This document shows positions 2,007 through 7,098 of a stretch of DNA of 64,000 bases, piece after piece. Each line of letters starts with the position of its first letter. Within the stretch, counting starts at the first letter, position 1. Origin of the DNA: Sulfurimonas sp. (GTDB lineage: Bacteria; Campylobacterota; Campylobacteria; Campylobacterales; Sulfurimonadaceae); assembly GCF_029027585.1 (NCBI RefSeq), contig NZ_CP093397.1, forward strand, positions 1,849,405 to 1,913,404, written 5' to 3'. Both the position numbers and the translations under genes were made by a program. The notes under the pieces were generated by a model. It was not told the DNA's origin. It did not search any database and worked only from the letters and a program-made list of their open reading frames with translations.

Positions 2007-3401
2007 TTAAAGTTGTGGGGCTATTATACGCATAAAGTTTTCAAATATACGGCGAGATTTAGATGCTTTAGCTATTTGTTTTTGAGAATTATTCATCAAG
2101 TTCTGCATCCACACATCTACTTTAGATAGGGTATCCTTATCATAAATAAAACTTACTATTTCATAATTAAGTAGTAATGAACGATTATCTATATTAACTG
2201 AACCAATCATTGACGCAGCATCATCAAAAAGGATAACTTTTGCATGAAGCATATTACCATTATAAAGAACAAGATTTATATTGGCTTCATCAAGTTCTCG
2301 CATATAAGAGGTTCGAGCTAAATCAGCAAAAAACTGATTTGATTTTTTTGGTGTTATTAGCTTAACATCGACACCCTTGTGTTTAGCAATTTTTAAAGCA
2401 TACATTAAATTTTCATCAGGAATAAAATAAGGTGTTACTATCCATACCCTTTGTTTTGCAGAATATATAGCACTTAATAGTGATTTATATAAGGCATCAC
2501 CCTTAATATCTGGTCCAGATGGCACTACTTGGATTGAGGCATCACCATAATTTTTTTTATTTGGTATAGTCGCTTTACGAATAGGAGAGTGATTTGCATA
2601 AGCCCAGTCATCTTCAAAAACTTGGGAATATTGATAAGTTGCTTCCCCTTGTGTTTTGAAGAGTATATCTTCCCATTGATCTTTAGTTTTATTTGCTCCC
2701 ATATATTCACAAGAGAGATTCATTCCACCAGATAATAAAGTTTCTTCATCAAAAAGATATATTTTTCTGTGATTTCTAAGATTGATATAATTTCTATAAG
2801 GTAAACGCAATAAAGGCATAAAAAAAGAGACTTTTCCACCTGCTTGTCGTAACTCTTTAAAAATATTTTGAAAAAAATAAATTTTATATGAACCAAGTGA
2901 ATCTATAAGCAGACGAACTCTAACACCTTCTTTGGCTTTTATAGTTAATTCTTTAATGATTTCTTGAGTTAACACATCATTTTTAAATACATAAGTGCTC
3001 ATACTAATACTTTTTTTAGTCTTTTTAATCTCATCCATCATATTAGTATAAGCTACATTGGCTTGTGTTATAAGCTCAAAACTATTATGTTGGCTTGCTC
3101 CTGGAATCCCATTAAAGCGTAAAATACCATCCATTACATTTACTTCTATATTTGATATGTTTTCACTACTTTTAAGACTAAGAGATGACATACCATTTTT
3201 AGTTGACTGTTTGCGTACACCAATCAAAAAATACAATAAAACTGAAAAATAAGGTACAACGATAATAAAAAGTAGCCAAGAAATCATACTAGTAGGAGTG
3301 CGTCTTTGATAAAGCATATGAAGCATTGTAAAAAGAATCAAAAGTTCTCCAATAATAAAAACACCATGAAGTACCAAGAAGTTTAAAAAGCTATTTTGCA
3401 T
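2007..3401 (-). CDS. cls: Cardiolipin synthase (phospholipase D family)
   Basis: This membrane enzyme joins phosphatidylglycerol molecules to make cardiolipin. Two hydrophobic segments lie at about residues 5-28 and 35-58, as in the ClsA type. They are followed by two HKD motifs: HRKIYLFDEETLLSGGMN in the middle and HAKVILFDDAASMIGSVN near the C-terminus. Both have the His, Lys and Asp needed for the two-step phosphatidyl transfer. The chosen start is the ATG at 3401, 8 bases after the pgpA stop. A longer frame from a TTG at 3437 would overlap pgpA and adds residues not typical of the family. The length (464 residues) is normal. PgpA, encoded immediately upstream, makes phosphatidylglycerol, the substrate of this enzyme. 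Confidence 0.93.
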   Translation of the reverse strand: MQNSFLNFLVLHGVFIIGELLILFTMLHMLYQRRTPTSMISWLLFIIVVPYFSVLLYFLIGVRKQSTKNGMSSLSLKSSENISNIEVNVMDGILRFNGIPGASQHNSFELITQANVAYTNMMDEIKKTKKSISMSTYVFKNDVLTQEIIKELTIKAKEGVRVRLLIDSLGSYKIYFFQNIFKELRQAGGKVSFFMPLLRLPYRNYINLRNHRKIYLFDEETLLSGGMNLSCEYMGANKTKDQWEDILFKTQGEATYQYSQVFEDDWAYANHSPIRKATIPNKKNYGDASIQVVPSGPDIKGDALYKSLLSAIYSAKQRVWIVTPYFIPDENLMYALKIAKHKGVDVKLITPKKSNQFFADLARTSYMRELDEANINLVLYNGNMLHAKVILFDDAASMIGSVNIDNRSLLLNYEIVSFIYDKDTLSKVDVWMQNLMNNSQKQIAKASKSRRIFENFMRIIAPQL

Positions 3402-3409
3402 AATTATCG

Positions 3410-3916
3410 TTATATGAAATTTTGAAGTTGTAGCCAACCCTGCCAGATAAGTGAACTGACAATTCCAGCTGCAAAACCAGCGATGATATCATCACCCATT
3501 ACACCTATTCCACCTTTCGTTTCTCTATCGATTCTACCGATGATAGATGGTTTTGCTATGTCGAAGTATCTAAATAGTGCAAAAGAAAGTATAGACTGAA
3601 TTAAAAAACCATTTTCAAATGAACTGACTTCACCCAAACTTACACTTATAGCAGGCGCAACGCTAAGGGCAAACCACATTCCTGCTAACTCATCTATGAC
3701 AATGCGTTTATCATCATGGATGCCAGATATTTCTTCGTATTTATTTATAGATTTTATCGCGATAATACTAAGCAGAGCAGTCGCTAAAAAAAGTGTTTGT
3801 GAATCAAAATAGATAAGGATTAGCATACCAAGAGGTAATGAGACAAGTGTTCCAACTGTCCCAGGAACTTTTGGAAATAATCCACTATATCCAAGTGTTA
3901 TAAAAAACCAATTCAT
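3410..3916 (-). CDS. pgpA: Phosphatidylglycerophosphatase A
   Basis: PgpA removes the phosphate from phosphatidylglycerophosphate at the inner membrane to give phosphatidylglycerol. The 168-residue length is close to that of the E. coli enzyme. Family landmarks are the N-terminal GYSGLFPKVPGTVGTL segment, the acidic DDKRIVIDELAGMW stretch that holds the likely metal-binding Asp and Glu residues, and the C-terminal GGIGVMGDDIIAG motif. Several hydrophobic helices separate these motifs. The gene lies 8 bases after the sat-like gene and 8 bases before cls, so transcription with both is very likely. The pair forms two consecutive steps of anionic phospholipid synthesis. Confidence 0.95.
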   Translation of the reverse strand: MNWFFITLGYSGLFPKVPGTVGTLVSLPLGMLILIYFDSQTLFLATALLSIIAIKSINKYEEISGIHDDKRIVIDELAGMWFALSVAPAISVSLGEVSSFENGFLIQSILSFALFRYFDIAKPSIIGRIDRETKGGIGVMGDDIIAGFAAGIVSSLIWQGWLQLQNFI

Positions 3917-3924
3917 TTATTTGC

Positions 3925-5115
3925 CTAAGTAAGAGATGTTGTTTGGTAAAGTTTCATAAGTTCAAGATAGAAATCTGCTTCAGTATGCTCTTTTAAAAGC
4001 CCTTCAACAGGTAAAATATCATAGTATAACTTTTCAAGATTTTTAAATCTATTTGGAAAAATATGAGATAATATTCGTGCTGAAATTTCTTTTCTCATAA
4101 GCATAGTTGGTGGTAAAATACCTAACTCTAAGAGTTCTAAGATTGAATCAGAATGGTAAGATATTTGATGATGTTGACCATGGGGACAAATATTTTTACT
4201 TACAAGAGTTGTACATTTGTCACAATAGACATATTCGCTTGCTATGGTTATCTCTATTTCTATCCCTATTACTCTGTCAATGATAGATTTGTTTGAGTTA
4301 CAATCATAAAACATACCAAGTCCGGCATGGTTTATACCTATCGTAAGTCTATCACAACCATAGTTTTTTGCAACTATTGCATCTATAATTATTTCATTAT
4401 AACCTGCAAAAATATAACTATTTTCTAAGGGAACAATAACGACATGATTTTTTGTTAAAAAGTTACTAATAAAATAATCTAAAGATTCTTTTCGTATATC
4501 GTAAGATAGATTTGATTCAGTATATGAGCGTAGTAAAAATATGACTAAAAGGTCAGTGTTTTCAAGAGCTTGTCTGATTAATCTTTCATGTGCACGATGT
4601 AAAGGATTTGCTGCCATAACGATGGCTGTTGTATGTTTGGCATCTATGCGATGTTTAGCATTATTTATAATTTCTTGATTAGTATTTAAAGGTTTATTTA
4701 AAAGTATATACTCACCACTTACAGCTAAAGAACCGAGTCTGTTTAAAGTAGTCATAACACCTGGATGACTTGTATCATCTGTACCATATATCTGTTTGAT
4801 TCTTTCACTTTTATCTATCTTAAAAACCTCTTCAACTATTAAAGTTGCAAATGGTTCTTGGTTAAAAAGTATTTCAAGCTCATCTCCAGTTTTTAAAGAT
4901 TTTAAGACTTGGGCATTCATCTTACCTGAAGGAGCAAGTATGAAAGGAAATGGAAAAGTTTTTCCATTAATTAGACCACTTTTAAGAACCTTTTTACTTC
5001 TCTGTGCATTCATCAAGGATGTTGCAGGGGCAAGTAAGCCATTCTTTAAAAGTTCCAGAGCAGAAGCTGCTTCACTGTCTATAAGAAGAGTTTTATTTTT
5101 TCTTGACGATATCAT
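3925..5115 (-). CDS. ATP-sulfurylase-like protein with altered sulfate site
   Basis: The 396-residue protein has the overall layout of dissimilatory-type sulfate adenylyltransferase (Sat): an N-terminal PUA-like part, then the nucleotidyl-transferase domain with NPLHRAHE at residues 170-177, and a zinc-type set Cys298, Cys301, Cys310, His312. The ATP-binding HxxH is intact. The usual QxRNP motif reads MAANP, so the sulfate-binding Gln and Arg are absent. The usual GRDHAG reads GINHAG, which loses another conserved Arg. Normal ATP sulfurylase activity is therefore doubtful. It resembles Cj1609 of C. jejuni in position (between the HP1021-type regulator and pgpA). The start overlaps the upstream regulator gene by 23 bases, which suggests coupled translation. 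It may be an adenylyltransferase with another substrate; this is inference. Confidence 0.75.
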   Translation of the reverse strand: MISSRKNKTLLIDSEAASALELLKNGLLAPATSLMNAQRSKKVLKSGLINGKTFPFPFILAPSGKMNAQVLKSLKTGDELEILFNQEPFATLIVEEVFKIDKSERIKQIYGTDDTSHPGVMTTLNRLGSLAVSGEYILLNKPLNTNQEIINNAKHRIDAKHTTAIVMAANPLHRAHERLIRQALENTDLLVIFLLRSYTESNLSYDIRKESLDYFISNFLTKNHVVIVPLENSYIFAGYNEIIIDAIVAKNYGCDRLTIGINHAGLGMFYDCNSNKSIIDRVIGIEIEITIASEYVYCDKCTTLVSKNICPHGQHHQISYHSDSILELLELGILPPTMLMRKEISARILSHIFPNRFKNLEKLYYDILPVEGLLKEHTEADFYLELMKLYQTTSLT

Positions 5116-5992
5116 ATTTTTTTCGTTTTTCCCATAAACTTTTTCTACTTATTCCTAATCTTTTAGATAGTTCAATATCAGGAAATTTATATTGGTAATT
5201 TAAAACGATATATTTAACATAATCTTCAATCGGAAGTATATCACCTTGGTCAAAAATATTATTTTCACTTTTAATTTCCAAAACTCTATATTCTACATTC
5301 TCTATCTTATCTGTACTTGAAACAATAACTTTTTTGTTAGAAATAAGGGAACAGAAGTTCTTTCTTTCCCCTTTTTTAAGAGTTTGATAGTCAGTTATGT
5401 AGATAATAGCATCTTGGTTTAACGATTCTAACTCATTTAAAGCTTTTTGGTCAGTCAAAGTTATGAAGTGAATAGGTAAATCTTTTTCATATGCATGCTC
5501 AAACGCAAAAGCATCTGAGTATTTTTGAAATGATGATGATATAAATATAGGAAGGTCTATCGTGTTATGGTCATGTTTATGCGTTACTGATGAAAAAGAG
5601 TGTGTTAAGTATTTTTTGTAAGCTTCATCTCTCTTTTTTAGTTTTTCATAATCTTGGTAATGGTTTATCTTTCTGATGAGTTCTTCAATCATAAAAGGCT
5701 TTAAAATATAGTCTTTTGCTCCAGCACTAAGTGGTTTTGAAACTGTATCGTTTGAAATATATGAAACCATTAAAATTATTATGGCTTTTTTAAATGTTTC
5801 TATTACTGGGTTGAAATCTTGCCCATTGATGTTTGTAGAAAGTAAAACAACATCATAGTCCTTATTTTTAATTGCATCTCTTGTTGAAGTACACATATCA
5901 CAAATATGCCCTAACTCACCTAGTTTAGTAGCTATACTTTGTGCTAAATAAACTTCATTTTCTATAATTAGTATTTTCAAATTTTTGTCCAA
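5093..5992 (-). CDS. HP1021-type atypical orphan response regulator
   Basis: The protein has an N-terminal receiver-like domain (about residues 5-120) and a C-terminal Fis-like helix-turn-helix (about 272-292, with LSKRLGISRKSLWEKRKK). The size (299 residues), domain order and position directly after ispDF match HP1021 of Helicobacter pylori and Cj1608 of C. jejuni. Those proteins act as transcription and replication-origin regulators that respond to redox state without a partner kinase. The receiver here is atypical in the same way: the phosphate-accepting Asp is replaced by Ser52 (VVLLSTNI) and the first acidic pair is reduced (IIENE), while Lys98 of LKPF remains. Phosphorylation is therefore not expected. 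Two cysteines at 31 and 34 could matter for redox sensing, but this is speculative. The gene overlaps ispDF by 16 bases. Confidence 0.88.
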   Translation of the reverse strand: MDKNLKILIIENEVYLAQSIATKLGELGHICDMCTSTRDAIKNKDYDVVLLSTNINGQDFNPVIETFKKAIIILMVSYISNDTVSKPLSAGAKDYILKPFMIEELIRKINHYQDYEKLKKRDEAYKKYLTHSFSSVTHKHDHNTIDLPIFISSSFQKYSDAFAFEHAYEKDLPIHFITLTDQKALNELESLNQDAIIYITDYQTLKKGERKNFCSLISNKKVIVSSTDKIENVEYRVLEIKSENNIFDQGDILPIEDYVKYIVLNYQYKFPDIELSKRLGISRKSLWEKRKKYDIVKKK

Positions 5993-7098
5993 TCAAAGTA
6001 TTTTAAATTTGCATTTGCAATAACTCCAACCCCTTCACTTCGACCAATAAAGCCGAGTTTTTCAGTTGTTGTAGCCTTTATGTTTACACGAGAACTATCA
6101 CATCTAAGTATCTTAGCAATAGTTCTTCGCATCTCTAGTTTATAATTGCCAATCTTTGGCGTTTGTGCCGCTATGGTTAAGTCAATATTTACTATGATAA
6201 AACCAAAGTCATATATCTTTTTAACCACTCTTTGTAGTAGAATCTTTGAGTCAATATCTTTAAACTCATCACTACTATCAGGAAACATCATACCAATATC
6301 ACCCATTCCTGCTGCACCTAAGAGAGCATCTATTAAAGCATGGATAGCTACATCTCCATCACTATGAGCTTTAAAACCAAAGTCAGAGTCGATTTTGACA
6401 CCGCAAAGGTACATCTGTGTCGTTTCATCAAAAGCATGAACATCAAAACCAGTACCACTTAAGATGTCATTTGATGGTTTCTCTAAACATGAGAGCAAAT
6501 TCAAATCTTTTACAAAAGTAATCTTATTTGCTTCGCTTTCACCTAAAATAAACTCTCTTGAGCCACCATTTGCAACTATCGCACTACTCTCATCTGTAAA
6601 CTCTTTATCTGTATCTAGAGCAGATTTCAAGATATTAGTACGCGATAGTTGTGGTGTTTGAATTCTTTTTACTTTATCTCTATTTATAGTTTCATTTTCA
6701 TAAACTATGGTGTCACTAACTTTTAAGTATGGAACTATGCAGTCAGCTTTTCCTTTTTTTGAGATTATTTTTTTTAAAAATTCTTCATTTATGCAAGCTC
6801 TTGCAATATCACTAACTATGACAAAATCACTTTGTACTTCTTTTAAAGCATTAAGTAAAGATTTTTGTCTAGTTGATGAACCTTGAACAAAAGTGAAAGA
6901 ATCATAGTTTTTCATAAATTCTATATCTTCTTTTGCAGAAGTTATAATGATTTTATCAAAAAGTTTAGTTTCTACACACTTTTGTGCTACTTCTTGCCAT
7001 AAAGGTTTATGCCCTATACGAAGCCATTGTTTCTTAGAACAGCACTTAAAACGACTTGAACTACCAGCAGCTAACAATACAAGCGTTAAATCATTCAA
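5977..7098 (-). CDS. ispDF: Bifunctional IspD/IspF isoprenoid enzyme
   Basis: This 373-residue fusion carries two enzymes of the methylerythritol phosphate pathway for isoprenoids, needed here for quinone tails and undecaprenyl carriers. Residues about 1-200 form IspD, a cytidylyltransferase, with the nucleotide-binding LLAAGSSSRFKCCSKKQW loop. Residues about 215-373 form IspF, the cyclodiphosphate synthase, with GTGFDVHAF (the metal-binding Asp-x-His), AHSDGDVAIHALIDALLGA and GDIGMMFPD. The fusion is the normal state in Campylobacterota. It is the first gene of the minus-strand operon and overlaps the HP1021-like gene. The promoter should lie in the 171-base divergent region shared with thiC. 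Confidence 0.96.
   Translation of the reverse strand: MNDLTLVLLAAGSSSRFKCCSKKQWLRIGHKPLWQEVAQKCVETKLFDKIIITSAKEDIEFMKNYDSFTFVQGSSTRQKSLLNALKEVQSDFVIVSDIARACINEEFLKKIISKKGKADCIVPYLKVSDTIVYENETINRDKVKRIQTPQLSRTNILKSALDTDKEFTDESSAIVANGGSREFILGESEANKITFVKDLNLLSCLEKPSNDILSGTGFDVHAFDETTQMYLCGVKIDSDFGFKAHSDGDVAIHALIDALLGAAGMGDIGMMFPDSSDEFKDIDSKILLQRVVKKIYDFGFIIVNIDLTIAAQTPKIGNYKLEMRRTIAKILRCDSSRVNIKATTTEKLGFIGRSEGVGVIANANLKYFDWTKI

Follow-up and report, generated by a model that had tools for sequence, protein, structure and literature searches.

The 64,000-nucleotide stretch of Sulfurimonas DNA analysed here (the window; its own genome is G000) encodes an ATP-sulfurylase-like protein for which we use the working name SATL, and whose gene is labelled sat or sulfate adenylyltransferase in other annotations (Table 1). 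No other PF01747 gene was found in this genome. SATL combines the PUA-like and PF01747 domains of the Sat-type ATP sulfurylases with the Sat fold: its AlphaFold model (mean pLDDT 82.8) best matched 1v47 (Z 31.9, rmsd 2.9 over 333 residues), and each of the twenty highest structure rows was a Sat, a PAPS synthetase or a Sat/APS-kinase chain, with Foldseek concordant. The next fold neighbours after Sat were CoaD and the NMN adenylyltransferases. Since the Sat chains could be aligned to the model only up to about residue 357, the C-terminal tail is an addition. The window protein falls short of the NCBIfam cut-offs for Sat (194.3 vs 387 for PRK04149, 134.7 vs 322.95 for sopT); of the true Sats scanned as a control, four in number, PRK04149 was passed by two and sopT by one, and the remainder missed by far less. 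As the first-pass annotation of this DNA had noticed, the HxxH pair (H173, H176) and the zinc-type cysteines (C298, C301 and C310, with H312 as fourth ligand) are intact, and MAANP and GINHAG stand at the sites of Sat motifs; these readings were confirmed in the open reading frame.

Table 1. The SATL gene, its neighbours and the features of its product, in window coordinates
Feature	Position	Strand	Basis or remark
pgpA, phosphatidylglycerophosphatase A	3410..3916	-	PF04608 125.7 bits; 8 bases after SATL
SATL gene, 396 aa, ATG start	3925..5115	-	ORF; PF01747 168.5 bits; PUA_2 72.4 bits; AlphaFold model nearest Sat structures
HP1021/CemR-type atypical response regulator	5093..5992	-	PF00072; overlaps SATL start by 23 bases
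ispDF, first gene of apparent operon	5977..7098	-	PF01128 + PF02542
PUA-like domain, residues 6-140	4696..5100	-	PF14306 match
ATP-sulfurylase catalytic-fold domain, residues 154-349	4069..4656	-	PF01747 match
MAANPLHRAH, residues 167-176, at the Sat QxRNPxHRAH site, without the sulfate-binding Gln and Arg	4588..4617	-	Q 0/80, R 0/80 relatives
GINHAG, residues 260-265, GRDHAG equivalent	4321..4338	-	R 5/46, D 1/46, H263 37/46 representatives
Zinc knuckle C298-x2-C301-x8-C310-P-H312	4180..4224	-	all four ligands in 46/46
CPHGQHHQ, residues 310-317, family signature CPHGxHHH	4165..4188	-	C, P, H, G and next His in 46/46
YHSDSIL, residues 320-326, at the site of the Sat pyrophosphate motif SGTxxR	4138..4158	-	alignment
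C-terminal tail, residues 356-396, with near-invariant F382-Y383	3928..4050	-	no counterpart in Sats; FY in 76/77 full-length relatives

SATL genes lie in a near-universal order, ispDF-HP1021-SATL-pgpA. Among the 39 wide loci, the gene-order scripts found HP1021 upstream in 34, ispDF upstream in 36 and pgpA downstream in 34, these counts being incomplete in that the HP1021 genes of L033 and L044 were missed though present in the gene-order table, and L068 was left without a SATL label. The conserved place beside HP1021 and pgpA, which the first-pass annotation had asserted, is thus borne out, but a conserved place is no proof that SATL interacts with its neighbours. None of the five true Sats that we compared occupies this place (0/5). 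In L181 a true Sat is preceded by an APS kinase, and inspection by eye found an APS kinase before Sat in L071 as well. An ORF of about 320 residues directly follows the true Sat in L071, L072, L073, L074 and L075 (the loci of G122, G162, G216, G120 and G280, respectively), and the ORF after the true Sat in L181 matched the pyruvate kinase barrel only (PF00224, 171.5 bits; TIGR01064, 228.9 vs a cut-off of 306.4).

In two f7 genomes (L057 and L058) SATL lies outside the operon and is divergent to queH. There it is followed by a lipoprotein-like ORF of 134-141 residues with no Pfam match (L057:7198-7599 and L058:7374-7796, both on the minus strand). A link to queuosine was rejected: QueH was present in 68/68 genomes, with or without SATL, and therefore forms no pattern with it. 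We likewise rejected a link to thiamine through the common neighbour thiC, which is found in 263/298 genomes and whose presence does not track SATL; for example, G016, G018, G062 and G065 have SATL without thiC, and G008, G030 and G095 have thiC without SATL. These four, and G067 and G070, which likewise kept SATL and have no thiC, belong to f2 g17 and g25; in several g14 genomes the thiC matches were either split (2-4 pieces) or very weak, which looks like a broken gene.

A search of 298 sampled Campylobacterota genomes matched 239, including one (G122) with a true Sat only, which leaves SATL in 238/298. The traceable genomes that lack it are confined to a few groups: f2 g18, g30, g31 and g34, f6, and most of f7. 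We take g18 to be gastric Helicobacter and f7 to be Arcobacteraceae; SATL is apparently missing in groups with a reported HP1021 (H. pylori, Arcobacter). Scanning DNA for the signature CPHGxHHH[IVT] retrieved 414 relatives among 423 stretches, and in the best 80 of these 414, 79 titles named Campylobacterota taxa and one merely a 'bacterium'. In a tree of 46 SATLs and five Sats, the two groups were split by a branch with 100/100 support. We read SATL as an ancient Campylobacterales paralogue that has been passed on vertically. It is under purifying selection, with a median dN/dS of 0.08 in the window's genus and one sister-genus genome, a weak estimate because silent sites were saturated (13/153 pairs usable at dS <2). 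Two SATL ORFs (L084:445-2250, plus strand, and L086:1357-3207, minus strand; putative start codons) carry N-terminal extensions of about 200 low-complexity residues; a fused second domain was considered here and rejected, since by eye the extensions appear to be low-complexity only. In G262, SATL is spread over two ORFs (L079:1357-2124 and 2205-2579, minus strand), perhaps through a frameshift or an assembly error.

The substrate contacts of Sat are laid out, in the sections available, by a report on the A. vinosum ATP sulfurylase (PMC3779200). Sulfate is held by Gln199, Arg201 and the backbone NH of Ala299; the alpha-phosphate by Thr200, the NH of Arg201, and Asn202; the ribose by the NH of Gly295, the backbone O of Arg296 (in GRD), and His298; and pyrophosphate by Asn202, His205, His208 and Arg365 of the SGTxxR motif, while the Asp of the lid motif GxxKxxD holds Arg201. 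The first-pass annotation had counted the Gln and Arg of QxRN and the Arg of GRDHAG among the sulfate contacts. By this account the first two stand, and the third does not: its backbone O meets the ribose.

We aligned 80 distinct SATL sequences with five true Sats from Campylobacterota, and made column counts on 46 SATL representatives sharing <70% identity. The sulfate-site Gln and Arg, the Arg and Asp of GRD and the Thr and Arg of SGTxxR are all kept in the five Sats, whereas in SATL the sulfate-site Gln and Arg are both absent throughout (0/80 each; 0/46 each in the representatives), so that the lack of sulfate-binding residues claimed for the window protein extends to the whole family. The Thr and Asn of the QxRN region remain in 5 and 19 of the 46 representatives. 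At the SGTxxR site, a loss that the first-pass annotation had overlooked, Thr remains in 1/46 and Arg in 3/46 (gone in 43/46), and the lid Asp is found in 4/46, in the column that is the least certain part of the SATL/Sat alignment. The GRD columns hold Arg in 5/46 and Asp in 1/46; the Ile of GINHAG is peculiar to G000, most relatives reading G[Q/R/K]NHAG. At the ribose site the Gly295 column is kept in 42/46 and the His298 column in 37/46, and the HxxH histidines in 36/46 and 43/46, with the full pair in 34/46 and an incomplete one in 12/46. By these column counts, SATL has lost the sulfate and pyrophosphate sides of the site along with the lid, and has mostly retained the nucleoside side.

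Strict conservation in SATL is found in the zinc knuckle, extended to CPHGxHHH..Y. Thirteen positions are invariant in the 46 representatives (E177, C298, C301, C310, P311, H312, G313, H315, G332, P335, P336, R341 and S345), and H316 and H317 are each present in 44/46. On the tree, C298, H312, H315, P336 and R341 required zero changes, and the minimum was 5 for H173, 3 for H176, 6 for H263 and 9 for G265. In the family, the histidines of the ATP site have disappeared on several separate occasions. Among the sequences closest to the window (set A2, the window and 47 named loci), H173, H176 and H263 are retained in 48/48 rows. In the window's clade the pocket may thus still be functional; these fully kept histidines suggest catalysis there.

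SATL is dispensable for sulfate activation, since the window's own genome has cysH, cysD and cysN, all over curated cut-offs, and four Campylobacteraceae genomes (G120, G162, G216 and G280) have a true Sat besides SATL. Next to the cys genes of G000 lie cysK and a nirA/sir-like gene, and no APS kinase was found in this genome. We surveyed a panel of 75 chosen genomes, 47 with SATL and 28 without, the latter picked non-randomly among unmatched genomes. CysN was over its cut-off in 19/47 genomes with SATL (none over it in 28/47) and 14/28 without; CysH in 7/47 (none over it in 40/47) and 13/28, respectively. In four further genomes with SATL (G167, G083, G195 and G056) CysH was clearly matched without reaching its cut-off, and two of them, G167 and G083, also came just short of that for CysN. 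Most SATL-bearing genomes are therefore without visible CysH-type sulfate reduction. SATL is very probably not an ATP sulfurylase. The view of the first-pass annotation that the protein serves a non-sulfur role is accordingly supported as likely, with sulfate a very unlikely substrate.

Some evidence on the importance of the gene comes from Campylobacter. In C. jejuni, IspDF is Cj1607, with Cj1608 and Cj1609 downstream, according to the portion consulted of one study (PMC4435418). Cj1609, a 'sulfate adenyltransferase' by name, has the same named neighbours as SATL and is taken here as its orthologue from gene order. The accessible part of a transposon study (PMC10077673) reads Cj1609 as sulfate adenyltransferase and reports that it is essential in six strains of C. 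jejuni and four of C. coli; the gene is core, but its essentiality does not hold throughout the four Campylobacter species tested. By this report transposons are not tolerated in the SATL gene of C. jejuni or C. coli (PMC10077673), a result that could also reflect a polar effect on pgpA. SATL probably has another task, one on which the survival of some of these bacteria depends. A literature search that left most subscription journals outside found, in the texts it reached, no report testing the activity of SATL or Cj1609 or noting the missing residues, and a term search of the available text of the CemR paper gave nothing on Cj1609.

The reading we prefer, at a probability of roughly 0.42, is that SATL would be a zinc-knuckle protein that binds a nucleotide and transfers adenylyl groups little or not at all. 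It has retained the fold of Sat and, in the pocket, the nucleoside side, most members showing HxxH together with the ribose contacts G260 and H263. Because the grip on sulfate and pyrophosphate is gone but the ribose site is mostly intact, SATL would bind an adenine nucleotide or a similar ligand. The state of this ligand might then be relayed to a partner through the zinc knuckle, the CPHGxHHH..Y loop and the FY...LYQ tail, SATL acting as a sensor or scaffold, presumably without catalysis. The first-pass annotation had suggested that the protein may adenylylate another oxyanion or small molecule; since the pyrophosphate Arg is gone in 43/46 representatives and HxxH is incomplete in 12/46, a non-catalytic role would be at least as likely as adenylylation of another oxyanion. 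Tentatively, and at somewhat less than even odds, SATL would found a class of proteins that spans the order, derives from ATP sulfurylase and is essential in C. jejuni and C. coli. The function of this class would have shifted from sulfate chemistry to a zinc-knuckle/CPHGxHHH/tail surface, by which a nucleotide-like ligand is reported or used, and the label 'sulfate adenylyltransferase' would have hidden the class.

The main rival, nearly as likely as the nucleotide-binding model, is that SATL is a working nucleotidyltransferase for a substrate other than sulfate, perhaps a small carboxylate handled by an acyl-adenylate route like that of citrate lyase ligase. The site of QxRN reads M-A-A-N-P, and the Pfam family Citrate_ly_lig was matched by 12/28 SATLs (E <=0.01) vs 0/5 true Sats (E <=0.1); TIGR00124 was matched by 6/6 SATLs scanned and 0/4 Sats, always far under its equivalog cut-off (31.4 vs 262.1 bits for the window SATL). 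The full HxxH in 34/46 representatives, and CoaD and the NMN adenylyltransferases as next fold neighbours, point the same way. The losses of the pyrophosphate Arg and of complete HxxH pairs weigh against a working enzyme, and service to citrate lyase is impossible in most hosts, CitF being absent in 43/47 SATL-bearing panel genomes. The likeness to these ligases leaves an acid-adenylating role open, but not that of citrate lyase itself, and we rejected SATL as the citrate lyase ligase (CitF in 4/47 genomes with SATL, none in G000). The acetate-tRNA ligase TmcAL was rejected too: the Pfam scan of SATL gave no PF05636, and this family matched 0/68 panel genomes, hence no replacement pattern.

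The other explanations are much less probable. The PUA-like domain and the divergent queH in the two f7 genomes would fit a protein whose PUA-like and zinc parts bind RNA in tRNA or ribosome work, an improbable reading given that true Sats share the same PUA_2 domain and that QueH occurs irrespective of SATL. Less likely still is that the annotation is right, SATL being a genuine ATP sulfurylase whose sulfate site is unusual. Its fold (Z 31.9 to 1v47), its PF01747 score (168 bits) and its retained HxxH and zinc ligands agree with the annotation, but it lacks the sulfate Gln and Arg and the pyrophosphate Arg of a substrate site that, in the same sections of the A. vinosum report, is described as virtually identical among Sats (PMC3779200); moreover, it misses the NCBIfam Sat cut-offs, stands alongside CysDN in G000 and a true Sat in four genomes, and occurs in genomes with neither CysN nor CysH. 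Least credible is a relic kept by chance, its essentiality solely polar on pgpA directly downstream: the essentiality of Cj1609 indeed does not extend to all four Campylobacter species tested, in the accessible part of that study (PMC10077673), and several lineages have no SATL, but its presence in 238/298 genomes, low dN/dS, 13 invariant positions in 46 diverged sequences and retention even outside the operon (L057, L058) all speak against it.

The SATL gene is currently taken as a sign of sulfate assimilation. A comparison of eleven Sulfurimonas strains lists 'Sat' for all of them, and in several as the sole step of the path, in the part of the paper available (PMC7952632), and an excerpt of another report terms the lone sat of a Campylobacterales genome 'conspicuous' (PMC4674564). 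If SATL is not a sulfurylase, such 'Sat' calls in Sulfurimonas are probably wrong and the puzzle of the lone sat is gone (PMC7952632, PMC4674564), and an essential Campylobacter protein, common to most of the phylum, is left without a function.

Compared with known systems, SATL is closest to the Sat-type ATP sulfurylase (PF01747 + PF14306; 1v47, 8a8d, 4dnx), with which it has in common the domain order, the fold over residues 5-355, the four zinc ligands and, in most SATLs, HxxH. Unlike this type, it is without the sulfate Gln and Arg, SGTxxR and the GxxKxxD lid; it has in addition CPHGxHHH..Y and a 40-residue tail, and sits in an ispDF-HP1021-pgpA setting with no cys genes. The likeness to the CysDN ATP sulfurylase lies only in the annotated reaction; the proteins are unrelated, and in G000 CysDN is the likely true sulfate-activating enzyme. 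With the citrate lyase ligase CitC (PF08218, TIGR00124), SATL shares a short stretch, M-x-x-N-P...H and the nucleotide-site helix, in a match of about 50-75 residues that lies far under the equivalog cut-off, and its hosts are mostly without citrate lyase.
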